Positions 17,243 through 23,547 of a DNA stretch of 64,000 bases are shown here, one piece after another (position 1 is the first letter of the stretch; each line of letters starts with the position of its first letter). The notes under the pieces are model-generated. The model had not been told where the DNA came from. It saw only the letters and a list, made by a program, of their open reading frames with translations, and did no database searches. The translations under genes were made by a program, and so were the position numbers. The stretch is taken from positions 186,894 to 250,893 of the forward strand of contig NZ_SJPF01000004.1 in the NCBI RefSeq assembly GCF_007859755.1, written 5' to 3'. Source of the stretch: Blastopirellula retiformator. GTDB lineage: Bacteria > Planctomycetota > Planctomycetia > Pirellulales > Pirellulaceae.

Positions 17243-17995
17243 TCAATCAGCAGCCGCGTCCGCCGGGCGCGGCTCTTTTTGTGCGTTTTCCGCCGCCAGC
17301 GCCGCGGCATCGCGTCGCCACAGCCAAACGAAGATGATCGCCAACAGAATCGCTCCCCACTGATACGCGGTCAGGCCGACCAGATACCGCGGCTCGGGAC
17401 GAATCATTTCGGTCAGAAAGCGATAGCTGAGGTAAACCAAGATGTAGAGCTTCATCAGTTGCCCGCGGAACCAACCCTTCCGCTCTAGCCACAAGAGCAG
17501 AAAACCCATCGTCAGGTGAAACAGGCTCTCGTAGATTTGCGTCGGATGCCGCAGGACGAGCGGATCGTCGACCGCCGTCGGAAACGCCACGCCCCAAGGC
17601 AACGTCGTCGGCGTTCCAAAACAACAGCCGCCAAAGAAACAGCCCCACCGGCCGATGGCGATCGCAAACGCCACCGGCGCTGCGAACGAGTCTCCCGTCT
17701 TGATCCGGATGTTCATCAGCCACTTGGCGATTTCCACTCCCAGATAGCCCCCCGCCAATCCGCACACGATCGTCTTGCCATGCGCAAACCAGGCGACGCC
17801 ATTCCACAGTCCCTCAAGGTCGTATAGCACGAAGGGCAACTTGGCGCCGATCATCGCGCCGCAAAAACCGCCCAATCCCAACCCGAACTTTTCTTCTCGG
17901 GTCAGCGGAAGCTTCTGCTGCGAGCGGCGCACCAGCAAACTGCAAAGCGCGATCGCCGTCGCCATGATCACGATATACGTCGGGTTGATCATCAT
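17243..17995 (-). CDS. Lgt-like (prolipoprotein diacylglyceryl transferase family) membrane protein
   Basis: Integral membrane protein of 250 residues with about seven hydrophobic segments. The Lgt-type phrases GLAGGYLGVEIAKW, GRWGCFFGGCCFG and RHPTQIYES are present. The central motif differs from the classical Lgt signature in having three cysteines (GCFFGGCCFG), so this is a divergent branch and not clearly the housekeeping enzyme. The start at 17995 follows the stop of the radical SAM gene by four bases. It is last in a ten-gene operon. Family knowledge suggests binding or transfer of a glycerolipid; the actual substrate is unknown. Confidence 0.8.
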   Translation of the reverse strand: MMINPTYIVIMATAIALCSLLVRRSQQKLPLTREEKFGLGLGGFCGAMIGAKLPFVLYDLEGLWNGVAWFAHGKTIVCGLAGGYLGVEIAKWLMNIRIKTGDSFAAPVAFAIAIGRWGCFFGGCCFGTPTTLPWGVAFPTAVDDPLVLRHPTQIYESLFHLTMGFLLLWLERKGWFRGQLMKLYILVYLSYRFLTEMIRPEPRYLVGLTAYQWGAILLAIIFVWLWRRDAAALAAENAQKEPRPADAAAD

Positions 17996-17999
17996 GGGG

Positions 18000-19511
18000 C
18001 TAGACGTGCTTTCGATCGAGCGGCGGTAGCGGCACATGGCCGTCACGATAGAGGACGTTGTACGCGCAGAACGGAATCAAGTGCCCACTCGGCAACACAT
18101 GATGAATGCAACACTTCATCACGCGGCGAACGTCAAAGTTATACGCGTCCAAAAACGAAGTGACCATCACGCGGAAGACGTCGCCGGCGCCCAGCTCTTG
18201 CCGCATCGCCTTGGTGAAGAAGTCGACCGCCGCCGCGCCAATCTCCGGATCGGCGAACATCTCCGGCGATAGCTCCAGTTCCGGCTCGCACGTCGGCGCG
18301 TCAATAATCGCAAACGGATCGTCGCTGGCCGCCGGCGGCGTCGTGCCGCAGTTGCCGCTGCTGCAGCAACCTTGTCGCACCAGGTAGCGCTCGAGCAGAT
18401 CTCGCACCGCGGGACGCGTAAAGGAAATGCCGCTCGCCAGTAGATCAATATGCTGCGTCGCGTCGATGAACCGCATCAGCGGGATCAGTTTCCCCTGATA
18501 CCGATAGGCGTAGCTCATTTGGTGGCAGTTGGGATGAGCGCATGGCAGCGGCATGAAGTCGCTTTGGCGGAAGCGTCCCGCCGTCTGCTCGTCGATACCG
18601 CGAATCACATCAGGGAAGGTGATCCGCCGCTCCAGCACTTCCGGCAGCACGTGTCGTCCGCTGTAAGTCGCCGGTTGAAAGCTAAGCCCGGTGATCCACG
18701 GCTTGTCGACGCAATAGTCGACCAGTGCCCCCAGCTGATCCTGATTGACGTCGGTCTGCAGCGTGGCGACCAGGTTCACGTGCAGGCCCGCTTCGCCGCA
18801 TCGCTCGACGGCCCGCTGTTTCGTTTCGACCAGCGATTCTCCCCGCAATTGCAGCGACGCCTCTTCGCTGAAGCCGTCAAACTGCAGATAGATCTCGATT
18901 CGATCGCGACGCTTCGCCAGCCGTTCGACCAGTTCCGCGTCGCGAGCCAATCGAATCCCGTTGGTGTTGATCATCACGTAGTCGATCGGCTGCGACAGGG
19001 CGTAGGCCAGGATCGTTTCTAACTCGGGATGAATCGTCGGCTCGCCGCCTGATAGCTGCAGCACTTCGGGGCGTCCTTCGACCTCGACCAAACGATCAAT
19101 CGCGGCCTGACACTGGGCGACGGTCAAATGATGGCCGCCGGGACCGCTGCCGGCGTAACACATCGGACAGGCCAGGTTACAGCTGGAAGTAATCTCGAGC
19201 AGGCCGATGCAACTGTGCTGTTCGTGCTCGGTACAAAGCCCGCAGTCGAGCGGACATCCTTTCTCCGGCAGTACGCCAAACTCGTGCGGCACCTTGCCAG
19301 GGACGCTGTACTGCAGCTGATCGTACTGGGCGACGTCCGAGCAGATGAAATCGTCTCGCGCGCCATGCTCGGGGCAGCGTTTGCGAAAATAGACGCGGTT
19401 CCCCTTGGTGATGATCTTGGCCGGGACCACCGCCAGGCATTCGGGACACAGGCTCTGCGTTACGCCCAGCAAGGTGTAATCGCGTCGAGCAAGTTCGTGC
19501 GGCTTGAGCAT
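18000..19511 (-). CDS. Radical SAM enzyme of the MJ0619/tetraether lipid synthase-like family
   Basis: Protein of 503 residues. The N-terminus has a rubredoxin-like SLCPECLAVVPAK with a matching RCPEHG (C22, C25, C46). GCPLDCGLCTEHEQHSC (C86, C90, C93, C101) is a family-specific extra cluster motif. The radical SAM motif is SSCNLACPMCY (C111, C115, C118). The C-terminal MKCCIHHV and IPFCAYNVLY are also typical. Archaeal relatives couple lipid tails (Tes, MJ0619). The adjacent Lgt-like gene fits a lipid substrate, but a C-C coupling or methylation reaction here is an inference. The ATG lies four bases after the zinc-ribbon gene upstream. Confidence 0.85.
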   Translation of the reverse strand: MLKPHELARRDYTLLGVTQSLCPECLAVVPAKIITKGNRVYFRKRCPEHGARDDFICSDVAQYDQLQYSVPGKVPHEFGVLPEKGCPLDCGLCTEHEQHSCIGLLEITSSCNLACPMCYAGSGPGGHHLTVAQCQAAIDRLVEVEGRPEVLQLSGGEPTIHPELETILAYALSQPIDYVMINTNGIRLARDAELVERLAKRRDRIEIYLQFDGFSEEASLQLRGESLVETKQRAVERCGEAGLHVNLVATLQTDVNQDQLGALVDYCVDKPWITGLSFQPATYSGRHVLPEVLERRITFPDVIRGIDEQTAGRFRQSDFMPLPCAHPNCHQMSYAYRYQGKLIPLMRFIDATQHIDLLASGISFTRPAVRDLLERYLVRQGCCSSGNCGTTPPAASDDPFAIIDAPTCEPELELSPEMFADPEIGAAAVDFFTKAMRQELGAGDVFRVMVTSFLDAYNFDVRRVMKCCIHHVLPSGHLIPFCAYNVLYRDGHVPLPPLDRKHV

Positions 19512-19515
19512 CGGA

Positions 19516-20052
19516 TCAATTCCCTGAGGGGTTCACATCAAAACAAGCTTGACCAAAAGCGGCAATTATGCTGACGAGGGCGAGGAGCACGATGGCGACC
19601 GCCAAGATCGCGACGCCGACCGTACCTAAAACCGTCATCAATATCGCGTAAACGGAGGCGAGGACGGCTCCTGTTTTTCGAATATTTTCGTCTTTGCTAA
19701 GCAGCGCTGTAAACAGCGCCGCCGCGGCCAATAGTAGGGGCGCGCCAAATGCCAGCGTGTAGAAAACGATCCAGTCTGGATTGACGTAATAAACGCCGAC
19801 CCCCATTATGATCAGCGCGAAGGAGGATAAGCCGAGCAGCAGGTAAGCGAAAACGCCACTGACGGCATCTGCATATGCTGGCGGGGACGATACATGGTCG
19901 GCGATATCCGCCTCTTCTTCCGCCAACGGCAAATGACAAATCCAACAATTGTCGGCAGACGTCTGGTTCTCGGCCCCGCACGCCTTACAAACAACTGACC
20001 GCCGTTCGCTGGGCGAAAAATGTCTTCCATCGGACTGATTCGCTTCGCTCAA
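19516..20052 (-). CDS. Zinc-ribbon membrane protein, paralogue 1
   Basis: Protein of 178 residues. CKACGAEN followed by CWICHLPL near residues 22-43 forms a four-cysteine zinc ribbon. Four hydrophobic segments fill the remainder. Two similar genes lie immediately upstream, and the CWIC phrase is shared by all three. It is the eighth gene of the ten-gene operon. Function unknown; the ribbon suggests a cytosolic interaction surface on a membrane protein. Confidence 0.75.
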   Translation of the reverse strand: MSEANQSDGRHFSPSERRSVVCKACGAENQTSADNCWICHLPLAEEEADIADHVSSPPAYADAVSGVFAYLLLGLSSFALIIMGVGVYYVNPDWIVFYTLAFGAPLLLAAAALFTALLSKDENIRKTGAVLASVYAILMTVLGTVGVAILAVAIVLLALVSIIAAFGQACFDVNPSGN

Positions 20053-20054
20053 AG

Positions 20055-20564
20055 TCAGTACCTAATCATGTCGATATTGTTCGTGCAGACCAGCAGAACG
20101 AAGACCACGATCCCAACGACGACCAAAATTGCCATGCCGACCGCCAGCATCAAAATCAAACTGATCGTGACCGCGATACTTCCCCCGACGCTTGCGGTGC
20201 GGCGATTGTTCCGGATTCCGCCGCGAATCATTAATGCGATCCCCAACATCGGCAGACTGACCACAAGCAAGTAAGGGAGCAGCAACCCCAAGTGCACCCG
20301 GGCCACCCCATAGCCAACCAATCCCAACGTTGGCAGCAAAATCAACACCGGCAGGTTGGCCGAGAACGTCGCCCGCGTCTGAGCGAACGCTGGCGTTTGG
20401 CCAACTTTCTCCGCCGCAACCAGTTCCTCCGTCTCCATCTCGCTTTGGCAAATCCAACATCGCGGCGCGAACGCGTAGTTCTCGGCGCCACACTGCGGGC
20501 AGGCCACCAACGGAATCGACCGCGGCTGTAGGTCTGCGCTTCGAAGTTGGCTAGGATCGCTCAT
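20055..20564 (-). CDS. Zinc-ribbon membrane protein, paralogue 2
   Basis: Protein of 169 residues with CPQCGAEN and CWICQSEM near the N-terminus and four hydrophobic segments after residue 70. The ATG at 20564 shares its A with the stop codon TGA of the preceding gene, which fixes the start; a longer frame upstream is only overlap with that gene. Function unknown. Confidence 0.75.
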   Translation of the reverse strand: MSDPSQLRSADLQPRSIPLVACPQCGAENYAFAPRCWICQSEMETEELVAAEKVGQTPAFAQTRATFSANLPVLILLPTLGLVGYGVARVHLGLLLPYLLVVSLPMLGIALMIRGGIRNNRRTASVGGSIAVTISLILMLAVGMAILVVVGIVVFVLLVCTNNIDMIRY

Positions 20565-21022
20565 CAATGAAAATTCTGATGGCCAAACATCTGCAAACAA
20601 ATCATGAAAAACAAGATTCCGATCGAAATCACCACCAGGCCGATGACGCTTACCAATACCAGTACAACGCTCAGCCCGCGGGTTGCGGTTGGTTTGTCCT
20701 TGGCCGCCAACACCTGCCGCAGCGTAATGCCAACGCCTAAACAGGGGACAACCACCAGAATCGCGTAGAAGATCAGCGCGACCGGATGGATCGTCGCCAC
20801 ACCGACGCCCACCAGCACCAGCGCCGCCAGCGTAAGCAGTAGCAGCACATTGCCCACCTTGGTATTGGCGCCGGCAACGAACTTCGGAGCCTCGACAGGC
20901 ACGGCGGCAACCAGTTCCACCTCGTCGACCAGCGCCCGCTGGCAGATCCAACAATTTGCAGCAAAGGCGTTGTTGTCGGCGCCACACTCGGGGCAGCGGA
21001 CTTGAGGAAGCGAACGACTCAT
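20564..21022 (-). CDS. Zinc-ribbon membrane protein, paralogue 3
   Basis: Protein of 152 residues starting with a near-terminal zinc ribbon, CPECGADN then CWICQRAL, followed by four hydrophobic segments. It overlaps the previous gene by four bases (ATGA) and the next by one (TGATG). The three ribbon proteins probably arose by tandem duplication. No family function is known to me. Confidence 0.75.
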   Translation of the reverse strand: MSRSLPQVRCPECGADNNAFAANCWICQRALVDEVELVAAVPVEAPKFVAGANTKVGNVLLLLTLAALVLVGVGVATIHPVALIFYAILVVVPCLGVGITLRQVLAAKDKPTATRGLSVVLVLVSVIGLVVISIGILFFMICLQMFGHQNFH

Positions 21023-21642
21023 GCTTCGCCCCCTCTCTGCCGGCGCTCGGCATAGGCGACCGCCAGATCTTTCGCCCGGCGGACCATCTGCCCTACCACG
21101 ATTCCGGCAGCGCCCAAGCTGACCAGCGTGATCGCCTGGCTGATTGGCGGCACCGCGTGATCGGCGTCAAACCAGGTCTTATCAACCGCGCCGACGCTCG
21201 CCATAAATCCCGCCATGCAGGCCAGCGTCGCAAACCAAACCAGCGGCAACTCAAACCGCAGGCCGGCCAAAATGATGATGAAGTAGTAGAACGTATCCAG
21301 TTGGGTCGCCGTCGGTCCGCCAGAGGCGGCGATTAATGTCGTCAAAAAGGCGATATCGACCGCGGTGCTGACGTAGCTGAGCAGCGGCGGAAACCAGCGC
21401 CGCAACAGCACCAGCCAAACGGCCAATGACAGGAAAAGCCAACCGCAGGCGATCAGCGTCGCCTGTTTATGAAAGTCGGCGTTGGCGGCTCTACCCGCTT
21501 CGTCCAACAAACCAAAATGATGCCATAACTGCAGCCCGTAGCAAACGACGATCGCCGCCATCCGCAGCGAAACAACGCGCATCTCGGCAACGTACGACTG
21601 CCAGCGGCGGACGATATACCAATCTCGATCAGGAGCGTTCAC
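21019..21642 (-). CDS. Polytopic membrane protein, unknown
   Basis: Protein of 207 residues with about six transmembrane segments, including GWLFLSLAVWLVLLRRWFP and TFYYFIIILAGLRFELPLVW. The layout resembles the membrane sensor half of some histidine kinases, but no kinase or cyclase domain follows. The C-terminus is short and basic. It overlaps both neighbours (14 bp upstream, 4 bp downstream), so it belongs to the operon. Confidence 0.7.
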   Translation of the reverse strand: MNAPDRDWYIVRRWQSYVAEMRVVSLRMAAIVVCYGLQLWHHFGLLDEAGRAANADFHKQATLIACGWLFLSLAVWLVLLRRWFPPLLSYVSTAVDIAFLTTLIAASGGPTATQLDTFYYFIIILAGLRFELPLVWFATLACMAGFMASVGAVDKTWFDADHAVPPISQAITLVSLGAAGIVVGQMVRRAKDLAVAYAERRQRGGEA

Positions 21643-21952
21643 GCGGTTGGGATCCTTCGTCGGGACTTGGGGACGATTTCTCGGTTGTCTCCGTCTGTCG
21701 TAGCGTATCGGACGAAGCTAGTCCAAGTCGATAGGCGAGCGTCACAGGAATCGAAACAAAAAAGAGGAAGGCGAACAACACGCAGGCCAGCGCAAGCAGG
21801 TTCGGGTCGACTCTCTCGGAAGTCGACGCGGCCTCATAGTTGGCAAGCGCCATCGCACATGTTCCGAAAAAAGCGACGCCGGACGCGATCATTACGAAGA
21901 GTGAAAGCGCCAGACAAATGGCCAATCTCTTCTTGTCTTTTCCTGCACTCAT
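21629..21952 (-). CDS. Small two-pass membrane protein, unknown
   Basis: Protein of 107 residues with hydrophobic segments at about 9-34 and 50-74 and a Ser/Glu/Pro-rich C-terminal tail. It overlaps its upstream neighbour by four bases (ATGA) and its downstream neighbour by 14. Its only clue is its place in the operon. Confidence 0.65.
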   Translation of the reverse strand: MSAGKDKKRLAICLALSLFVMIASGVAFFGTCAMALANYEAASTSERVDPNLLALACVLFAFLFFVSIPVTLAYRLGLASSDTLRQTETTEKSSPSPDEGSQPRERS

Positions 21953-22479
21953 GCCGGCTCCTTCGCTTCCCCCGCCGCGACGCGTCTATTCCAGAGCGAT
22001 TCGATCGAGGGGGGACCGAGGAAAACCAAAAGCACAATAGTTGTAACCAGCCCCAGTAAGCCATCGACCAAAACTGCATCGAACGCAGAAAATCGGTCGC
22101 CGAGCCAAAGAATCGCGCGAAACAAGATTCCCCCCAGCAAGCCAGCCAAGGCGGACATCGCCAGACCGCACACCACGGCAATCGTGACGCGAACCAGCGA
22201 GCCGAACAGGATCCACGTTGCGTCACACCGTCGAAACTGCCAACGGCCCCTCTGTTTGCGGGTCACTTCCGCCCACGCTCGAACGACGGCGAGGCTGACG
22301 CCAATCACCACGCAGTAGCCCAGCAGCGGGTGGGCAAGAAAGCTGAACAACGCCGCGACAAATGCCAGAACGATCCCAAACGCGAATTCGTTCTCCAATA
22401 GCACGGGATGCACAGCCGTCGCTTCAGCCGTCGGCGCCGTGGGCGACTGGAATGGGTTTTCGTCATCTTGATCACTCAT
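21949..22479 (-). CDS. NPFQSP-motif membrane protein, paralogue 1
   Basis: Protein of 176 residues beginning MSDQDDENPFQSP and containing four or more hydrophobic segments. The C-terminal phrase FLGPPSIESLW matches RLGPPSLEVL and RLGPKKLEVL in the next two genes, so the three are paralogues. The NP[FY]xSP motif near the N-terminus recurs in planctomycete membrane proteins; its function is unknown to me. It overlaps the upstream gene by eight bases. Confidence 0.75.
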   Translation of the reverse strand: MSDQDDENPFQSPTAPTAEATAVHPVLLENEFAFGIVLAFVAALFSFLAHPLLGYCVVIGVSLAVVRAWAEVTRKQRGRWQFRRCDATWILFGSLVRVTIAVVCGLAMSALAGLLGGILFRAILWLGDRFSAFDAVLVDGLLGLVTTIVLLVFLGPPSIESLWNRRVAAGEAKEPA

Positions 22480-22996
22480 GACGATCCGCCTCGCTTTTCG
22501 TCCGCGCCGCGCTCTGACGCCGCAGCACCTCCAGCGACGGCGGCCCCAGTCGCCAAATCACCCAGAAGAACGTTACGACCATCGCTCCGTAGGAGATTCC
22601 GAACACGAACGTCATCAAGACGCTACCGCCGGCAGGTGGACGAAAAAAGGGCGCATTGGTCACAATCGCCATGCCGGTACACGTGATCAAAAAGGCGATC
22701 GCTCCTGCCACCGCAGCGCCGATCGCCACCGACAACGCCTTTCCGAGAGAGTTGAGCTGTTGCAAGGGACCGATTGAACAACCGGCCAAGAATTTGCGAT
22801 GCAGTTCCAACAACGAGCGAAGAGAGACCCCCAGCGAACCGAAGAAGAGCAATCCGCCGGACCAAGGTTCACGATAAAACATCGGCGCCACGACAACAAA
22901 CATCACTGCCGAAACAATCCACCAGACATACCACTGCCGCCACGGTGCGGTGACGTTTGGCTCCTGCGGCGATTGGTAGGGATTGTCGTCGGTCAC
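22472..22996 (-). CDS. NPYQSP-motif membrane protein, paralogue 2
   Basis: Protein of 174 residues beginning MTDDNPYQSPQEP, with four hydrophobic segments and the shared C-terminal phrase RLGPPSLEVLRR. It overlaps both flanking paralogues (four bases upstream, eight downstream). Function unknown. Confidence 0.75.
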   Translation of the reverse strand: MTDDNPYQSPQEPNVTAPWRQWYVWWIVSAVMFVVVAPMFYREPWSGGLLFFGSLGVSLRSLLELHRKFLAGCSIGPLQQLNSLGKALSVAIGAAVAGAIAFLITCTGMAIVTNAPFFRPPAGGSVLMTFVFGISYGAMVVTFFWVIWRLGPPSLEVLRRQSAARTKSEADRHE

Positions 22997-23547
22997 GGCG
23001 AAGGCTGACTCTGGTTCGGTTCTGTCGAAATCGGTGGCTCACCACCATGCCGGTTCGCTTCCTGCTGCAGGACCTCTAGTTTCTTGGGGCCGAGTCGGTA
23101 GAACAGCCACCCCAGCAGGGCAAGACCCACAGGAATTGCGCCGAACATCAACACAATCCCAAACATTTCTCCCTGACCTTGCCCGACATTCGCAACGGCA
23201 ATCCCGCTGGCACATACGGTTGTTCCAGCGACACCGGCCGAAATGATCGTGATCATCGAAACCCCCAGCGAAACGCCAAGCGATTTCCACTGCACGCCGT
23301 AGTCGACCAACCAACCTGCCGCCAACTTGCGGTTGAGGTCACTGATCGTCCTCACCAACGCCGGCAAGCCAACCGCCACGATAAAGGCCAACAGCATCAG
23401 CAGCGTCTCGAAAAAGGCGCACAGGACACCTACCAGCACGAAAATGCCGGTTGCCCCGTAGAGCACCAACCAGGGAGGCTGACGATGGGCTGGCGTTTTT
23501 GCCGCGGGTGACTCGAACGGATTGGACTCTTCGTTTTCGGGGACCAT
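22993..23547 (-). CDS. NPFESP-motif membrane protein, paralogue 3 and first gene of the operon
   Basis: Protein of 184 residues. The ATG at 23547 gives MVPENEESNPFESP, placing the motif where it lies in the two paralogues; the longer frame upstream is rejected for that reason. Four hydrophobic segments follow, then RLGPKKLEVLQQEA and a polar tail. It heads the ten-gene block that ends with the Lgt-like gene. Confidence 0.72.
   Translation of the reverse strand: MVPENEESNPFESPAAKTPAHRQPPWLVLYGATGIFVLVGVLCAFFETLLMLLAFIVAVGLPALVRTISDLNRKLAAGWLVDYGVQWKSLGVSLGVSMITIISAGVAGTTVCASGIAVANVGQGQGEMFGIVLMFGAIPVGLALLGWLFYRLGPKKLEVLQQEANRHGGEPPISTEPNQSQPSP

Follow-up and report, generated by a model that had tools for sequence, protein, structure and literature searches.

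What might a radical SAM protein and a member of the Lgt family be doing at the end of an operon that otherwise encodes small membrane proteins? The question is raised by ten open reading frames (ORFs) on the minus strand of Blastopirellula retiformator, at 17243–23547 of a 64,000-nucleotide stretch of contig NZ_SJPF01000004.1, the whole of which is referred to here as the window. Named from 23547 downwards, they are A1–A3, B4, B5, Z6–Z8, RS (the radical SAM protein) and Lgt. An earlier note on the window had proposed that the operon makes or organises an unusual membrane lipid, possibly an ether or membrane-spanning one, with the small proteins as partners. Our analysis points to a three-part module, in which RS and an Lgt paralogue are joined by small membrane proteins that carry a cysteine in a transmembrane (TM) helix. 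While the module itself is well supported, its chemistry is more tentative: we favour, with some reserve, a reading in which the Lgt paralogue would lipidate the cysteine of an uncleaved protein and RS would tailor the lipid.

RS and the Lgt paralogue as the durable core

The well-supported, durable part of the operon is its last two genes, RS and Lgt. Our family survey covered 149 genomes including that of B. retiformator, 53 of them with an RS match (E <= 1e-76, at least 50% identity), and 40 family loci were taken, from 37 of the other 52 RS genomes plus three more distant ones. With adjacency defined as the same strand and within 300 bp, RS and Lgt are adjacent in 28 of these 40 loci (two of the 12 misses, L042 and L071, lie at a contig edge), and in 16 of 22 further loci from the planctomycete phylum outside the family, the six without the pair including L085 and L098, which group with Tes in the RS tree. 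A wider bacterial scan was limited to the best 80 loci of the genome_contigs collection, 49 of which have an Lgt-like gene, always on the RS strand, within 300 bp in 36 cases and at 321–3909 bp in 13. The order is RS-Lgt in the clade of the window and mostly Lgt-RS elsewhere. Record titles among these 80 loci name Planctomycetota, Bacteroidota groups, Cylindrospermum, Paenibacillus, Chloroflexota groups, Vicinamibacteria, Obscuribacterales and a Rhizobiales metagenome-assembled genome (MAG); titles of MAG records may be wrong, and some records bear the titles of cultured Bacteroidota, of a cyanobacterium and of a Paenibacillus. Co-occurrence was assessed in 60 drawn genomes of the Bacteroidota phylum together with a centre genome picked for having the module: RS is found in four of the 61 and an Lgt-like gene (at least 227 bits) in five, including all four with RS, other Lgt scores being at most 101.5 bits. 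In one of these, G597, RS and the Lgt-like gene are carried by separate contigs. Leaving the centre out, the chance of three of three RS genomes falling among 4/60 is 1.2e-4, kinship being ignored.

The ten-gene order, which the earlier note had proposed to look for across planctomycetes, is not kept even throughout the genus and was rejected as a conserved unit. By BLAST, only L035 among the three same-genus loci has B4, and A-type genes are found in all three of them and otherwise in L038 and L039 only, while B5 and Z-type genes adjoin RS more widely than either. Within the B. retiformator genome no A-type or Z-type protein was found outside the operon (E <= 0.01). Because the RS-Lgt pair is met again in other phyla, and proteins of the A and Z types were found in this genome only within the operon, the arrangement is not one of chance.

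RS (18000..19511, 503 aa) is a protein of the Tes/TrsS superfamily, with the Pfam domains Radical_SAM and HMPTM zinc ribbon. It scores 300.7 bits against the NCBIfam Tes model NF045702 and 358.3 bits against the TrsS model NF045646, its best NCBIfam match, which is below the respective cut-offs of 450 and 490; the TrsS cut-off was exceeded in none of 392 genomes of the planctomycete phylum. The closest solved sequence is MJ0619/GDGT-MAS (7tol, E 6e-76). The comparison of an RS model with Tes, as the earlier note had advised, gave a clear match: the model (pLDDT 85, pTM 0.86) superimposes on 7tom over 429 residues (Z 47.6, root-mean-square deviation (rmsd) 2.5), which is the full Tes architecture. 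The next fold is MoaA (Z 20.7), level with the peptide maturases SuiB and SkfB (Z 19–21).

The RS tree (79 rows; a quick method with SH-aLRT support only, and with L074 and L187 as long branches) separates eight archaeal Tes rows plus L085, L098 and L187 from the other 68 rows with support 100. The window RS belongs to a clade of 12 planctomycete rows (support 99), nine of which have Lgt, and a second clade, of 28 rows across phyla, has Lgt in every row (support 96). Two Lgt-paired rows, L117 and L167, fall inside a third clade, in which the downstream neighbour is a class I methyltransferase that we take to be TrsM; this suggests repeated association of RS with Lgt, though exchange could also be the source of their placement. 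RS was therefore rejected as a member of Tes (below the cut-off and outside the archaeal Tes branch) and likewise of TrsS (below the cut-off, on another branch than the methyltransferase-linked relatives, and with no methyltransferase among the ten genes). The earlier label of "tetraether-synthase-like" thus stands for the whole-length fold, but not for the function.

A similar picture emerges from the metal-ligand positions. C22/C25/C46/H49, C86/C90/C93 and C111/C115/C118 of the window RS align with positions common to eight archaeal Tes, in agreement with the MJ0619/Tes motifs that had been noticed before, so that RS resembles Tes in its rubredoxin-like, N-terminal cluster and radical SAM ligand positions as well as in fold. 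Cysteines aligned with those of the Tes C terminus (C329, C467 and C482) are kept in 10, 10 and 11 of the 12 rows of the window clade. In the broad 28-row clade, position 329 is A (20), C (7) or S, position 467 is S or T (27) and position 482 is E or D (27); which of the Tes cysteines would bind the C cluster is judged here from the alignment. RS differs from Tes not only in score, branch and Lgt neighbour but also in three extra cysteines, C101, C324 and C468, which are Cys in every one of the 65 rows that make up the three non-Tes clades, those with a methyltransferase neighbour included, and in none of the eight archaeal Tes. Among the further rows on the Tes side only L098 has one of them, at 324; the long-branch rows L072–L074, outside the three counted clades, carry all three. 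The C-terminal cluster of Tes has a labile Met439, and M439A and Y459 variants stay active (PMC9433317). Given these data and the differences in the C-terminal cysteine positions, it would not be safe to assume Tes-identical chemistry for RS.

Several side observations concern RS and its relatives. Residues about 375–400 (window about 18310–18390) form a low-confidence loop of the model that, in the window RS clade, carries a motif of the CC-x(2-4)-C or CGSDCGC type in most of 36 sequences compared, a possible metal or redox site. In a Cys-rich loop of the Lgt-paired RS gene of L087 (genome G263), an in-frame TGA at 2617–2619 aligns with a Cys of its relative L078 (PGESCGP vs PGES*GP) and possibly encodes selenocysteine; a hairpin with a GGU loop appears in a 45-base fold and not in a 60-base fold, and G263 has SelB above cut-off. 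In L236, too, the RS gene has a stop, but this is a frameshift and the same interpretation was rejected. An anti-phage role of RS was dropped, as its PADLOC matches are viperin models at 38–42 bits that cover the radical SAM part only; five other window proteins gave no PADLOC match at E <= 0.01. The two planctomycete-phylum relatives that group with archaeal Tes, L085 and L098, are better candidates for real tetraether-type chemistry, and in four genomes of this phylum (G296:C15, G192:C132, G270:C218, G213:C299) two or three RS-family genes lie close together.

The last gene (17243..17995, 250 aa), which the earlier note took for a divergent member of the Lgt family, is indeed one: it scores 123.1 bits against PF01790 (cut-off 24.9) and 71.5 against the equivalog TIGR00544, below the cut-off of 118.9. 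Its model (pLDDT 91) has 5azb as the sole Foldseek match at E <= 0.001 (1.7e-6; Z 13.0, rmsd 4.7, 233 residues). The B. retiformator genome holds one further Lgt-family gene, and such a second gene is present in nine of nine Lgt-RS genomes checked. In a tree of 57 rows, 40 RS-paired Lgts lie on one side of a branch with support 96, with 15 other Lgts including that of E. coli and two further Lgt-family rows on the other. The paired Lgts form a compact subfamily, in which the stretch from the signature motif to HPTQxYE, the site of the head domain in E. coli, is missing in large part. Core residues are retained, with equivalents of R143, Y235 and R239 in 29 of 29 aligned sequences, of E202 in 28, and E or D at E243 in all 29.

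A shared cysteine in the small membrane proteins

What the small proteins have in common is a single feature, one cysteine at the end of a TM helix. With TM segments called by a simple hydropathy scan, seven of the eight small proteins of the window have a Cys in, or at the end of, such a helix, the motifs being GTTVC (A1), FLITC (A2), AFFGTC (B4), FFMIC (Z6), LLVC (Z7), FGQAC (Z8) and, in mid-helix, IAVVC (A3). The window paralogues are only 25–39% identical to one another, and no small protein examined has a Pfam or NCBIfam family above cut-off. A and Z types merge in iterative profiles, although these were run without bias filters and composition may have helped; in their joint alignment one late column has Cys in 38 of 39 residues, with a gap in 17 of 56 rows. 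Within one genus (L035, L036, L037), A/Z gene number and sequence vary, whereas RS and Lgt keep an identity of about 90%, a pattern that could be expected of fast-evolving substrates or partners.

Small proteins beside Lgt-RS in records from Bacteroidota, Cyanobacteria, Paenibacillus and Chloroflexota likewise carry C-terminal Cys motifs, such as LISLGICGSMM, LIGFSTC, VIGFGAC, LLNAACFG, LLNGTCSL and FTVWCFAM, while several of these sets form separate BLAST clusters with no detectable mutual similarity. Nearly all of these Bacteroidota proteins have the Cys and none a zinc ribbon, which is N-terminal in many planctomycete small proteins. The sharing of a helix cysteine between the small proteins of the operon and those of other phyla is new here.

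To what extent the cysteine is specific to the module can be seen from small proteins with a C-terminal TM segment at Lgt-type loci. Of the near proteins (within 1000 bp of RS), 39 of 44 have a Cys among their 30 C-terminal residues, against five of 14 far ones (at least 1500 bp; Fisher p 2e-4), nine loci with an RS missed by the gene caller being left out, and one of the five far matches (L170) being kept as background although it looks like a member of the system. A looser background, mixing in genes beside RS with no Lgt seen, gave 38/43 vs 18/35 (p 4e-4). Most of these cysteines (41 of 47) lie 4–14 residues from the C-terminal end. In 15 RS-Lgt pairs inspected later, a small protein with a helix Cys was found in 11 (L249, L250, L252–L258, L262, L263), under a rule of adjacency and TM content with the Cys judged by eye; looser inspection adds two more, L251 and, with a divergent gene, L261, which are counted apart. 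Thirteen of these 15 are wider stretches around pairs already found, whose small proteins had not been inspected previously. Outside the pairs, the RS-only locus L264 has such a protein, and none was seen at the Lgt-only locus L248.

Possible chemistry of the module and its rivals

How might these parts work together? We suggest that dedicated small membrane proteins would present a conserved Cys at the outer end of a TM helix, and that the Lgt paralogue would most likely move a diacylglyceryl-type lipid onto it. Since canonical Lgt acts on an in-to-out helix with an outer-end Cys, lipid transfer is the simplest expectation for an Lgt paralogue beside helix-Cys proteins. The acceptor would stand where a lipoprotein precursor has its lipobox Cys, except that no signal peptide would be removed; cleavage seems unlikely because the residue at -1 is often not small and the Cys is often near the C terminus. 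RS most likely would make or alter the lipid by functionalisation or coupling of its tails, before or after transfer. A lipid-related role, as the earlier note had it, remains reasonable in view of the Tes architecture of RS and of its linkage to Lgt across phyla in both orders, whereas no result shows an ether or membrane-spanning lipid. The idea of the small proteins as partners is the less likely one, since the one feature that they share points rather to acceptors. A bolder extension, a widespread second bacterial lipidation system in which RS builds an unusual, possibly membrane-spanning lipid covalently joined to an uncleaved TM protein, is conceivable but doubtful.

The outer position of the Cys is presumed from charge. 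Taking the conserved-column (A/Z) or last Cys, the Cys side is less positive in 70 of 83 proteins, equal in eight and more positive in five, a count helped by short C-terminal tails; a cruder count, taking the Cys nearest any helix edge, is weaker (less in 65 of 103, equal in 19, more in 19). Both qualifications tell against acceptor lipidation, as do a number of other observations. TM segments depend on the simple scan, the Cys motif of A3 (IAVVC) sits mid-helix, five of the 44 near proteins and one c3 protein at L141 have no Cys, and no such small protein was found beside the pairs L259 and L260 or in the split genome G597 (RS-only L247, Lgt-only L246). A lipobox, [LVI][ASTVI][GAS]C following a signal peptide at the N terminus, was not seen by eye: the Cys stands at a C-terminal or internal TM end, and the residue at -1, often I, T, V or F, is not that of a lipobox. 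RS, with no TM segment, presumably lies in the cytoplasm, on the opposite side from the cysteine. The paired Lgts do not conserve H103, and 27 of 29 have Cys in place of N146; both residues are essential in E. coli Lgt (PMC4728403, PMC13251419), although the genome's other Lgt-family protein likewise lacks them in the same alignment. Nor does RS need Lgt, as many of its relatives have a methyltransferase in its place (12 of the best 80 loci, downstream of RS) or no Lgt at all (ten RS-tree rows from mostly actinobacterial records), and in the Bacteroidota set G580 has the Lgt-like gene without RS.

Other explanations account for part of these data. In a pathway confined to lipids, RS would couple or alter phospholipid tails, Lgt would shift diacylglyceryl between lipids and the small proteins would be scaffolds or chaperones. 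The full Tes fold and the Tes-aligned C-terminal cysteines kept in most window-clade rows fit such a pathway, and bacterial Tes homologues, reported in Planctomycetota MAGs, have been proposed to make membrane-spanning lipids (PMC8941075, PMC11868695); yet RS lies outside the Tes branch, these cysteines are mostly gone from the broad Lgt-paired clade, and the TM-end Cys common to mutually dissimilar small proteins is left unexplained, so that we regard this as a serious though unlikely alternative. Peptides that are small, occur in several copies, change fast and adjoin a radical SAM enzyme also recall the maturation of ribosomally synthesised and post-translationally modified peptides, with RS forming a thioether or other crosslink at the Cys and Lgt, as an accessory, holding or lipidating the product. 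SuiB and SkfB are among the nearest folds after Tes, albeit level with MoaA, but the whole-length match of RS is a lipid enzyme, and the Cys is apparently at the outer membrane face while RS has no TM segment, which makes this explanation improbable.

The N-terminal zinc ribbon of many planctomycete small proteins, together with the loss of H103 and part of the periplasmic head region from the paired Lgts, would be consistent with structural or metal/redox partners, the Cys pairing or binding metal and Lgt only binding lipid and anchoring RS. We consider this quite improbable, since the equivalents of R143, Y235 and R239 are invariant in the 29 paired Lgts aligned and the Bacteroidota proteins listed have no ribbon, yet nearly all have the Cys. 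A reading in which RS-Lgt alone is a unit and the eight small genes are passengers unrelated to it would agree with the unconserved ten-gene set and with pairs that have no such small protein; it is already unlikely, and in our estimate very much so, because within the genome A/Z genes were found only in the operon, and small genes with a TM Cys turn up again next to RS-Lgt in several phyla, including among the later-inspected pairs. Acceptor lipidation accommodates the shared cysteine and the retained Lgt core, and predicts which Cys would be the acceptor.

Among known systems, the Lgt paralogue is like Lgt in family, 5azb fold and its core arginines and tyrosine, and differs in its RS-paired branch, shorter head region, absence of H103 and score below TIGR00544. 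TrsS is listed in a table of PMC13188914. Mss and Ger, bacterial enzymes for lipid tail coupling and ether bonds with homologues reported in some planctomycetes (PMC13274423, PMC11868695), can be likened by description only. Tes homologues were reported in 110 of 684 Planctomycetota MAGs from the Black Sea (PMC11868695), and the function of bacterial Tes homologues is described as unproven (PMC8941075) and that of bacterial Tes-like radical SAM proteins as unconfirmed (PMC11868695). We found no paper that brings Lgt and a radical SAM protein of the Tes-like kind together in one module, in a search that left most subscription papers and bioRxiv uncovered, and the module of RS, Lgt and small proteins is apparently undescribed. 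It turns an isolated planctomycete operon into a testable module spanning several bacterial phyla and gives the Tes-like radical SAM proteins of bacteria a context, with the caution that homology alone should not make bacteria with such proteins producers of branched glycerol dialkyl glycerol tetraethers (brGDGTs). If acceptor lipidation is true, it may represent a new route for attaching an unusual lipid to membrane proteins.

Layout of the operon in the window

The compactness reported in the earlier note is borne out by the ORF positions and junction distances: from 23547 down, consecutive genes overlap by 4, 8, 4, 14, 4 and 4 bases and are then separated by gaps of 2, 4 and 4. The start codon is GTG for A2 and B5 and TTG for Z7 and Z8, and the most likely start of Lgt is the ATG at 17995. 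Sequence motifs likewise agree with the division of the small proteins into three with NP[FY]xSP, three with an N-terminal CxxC...CWIC ribbon and two others, all encoded on the minus strand.

The NP[FY]xSP proteins are A1 (NPFESP, 22993..23547, 184 aa), with Cys112 at 23212–23214 and a second helix-end Cys; A2 (NPYQSP, 22472..22996, 174 aa), with Cys106 at 22679–22681; and A3 (NPFQSP, 21949..22479, 176 aa), whose mid-helix Cys104 is at 22168–22170. B4 (21629..21952, 107 aa) is a two-TM protein that is weakly A-type (E 0.0038), with Cys32 at 21857–21859. B5 (21019..21642, 207 aa) is a multi-TM protein with cysteines in its helices; it is weakly PilS-like (19.3 bits, below the cut-off of 27) with no kinase domain, and is the best conserved small gene within the family, with 15 other loci by profile. 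The ribbon proteins are Z6 (20564..21022, 152 aa), with three TM segments and Cys142, 10 aa from the C terminus, at 20597–20599; Z7 (20055..20567, 170 aa), with a TM segment and Cys161 at 20085–20087; and Z8 (19516..20052, 178 aa), also with a TM segment, whose Cys170 at 19543–19545 lies outside the aligned A/Z column.

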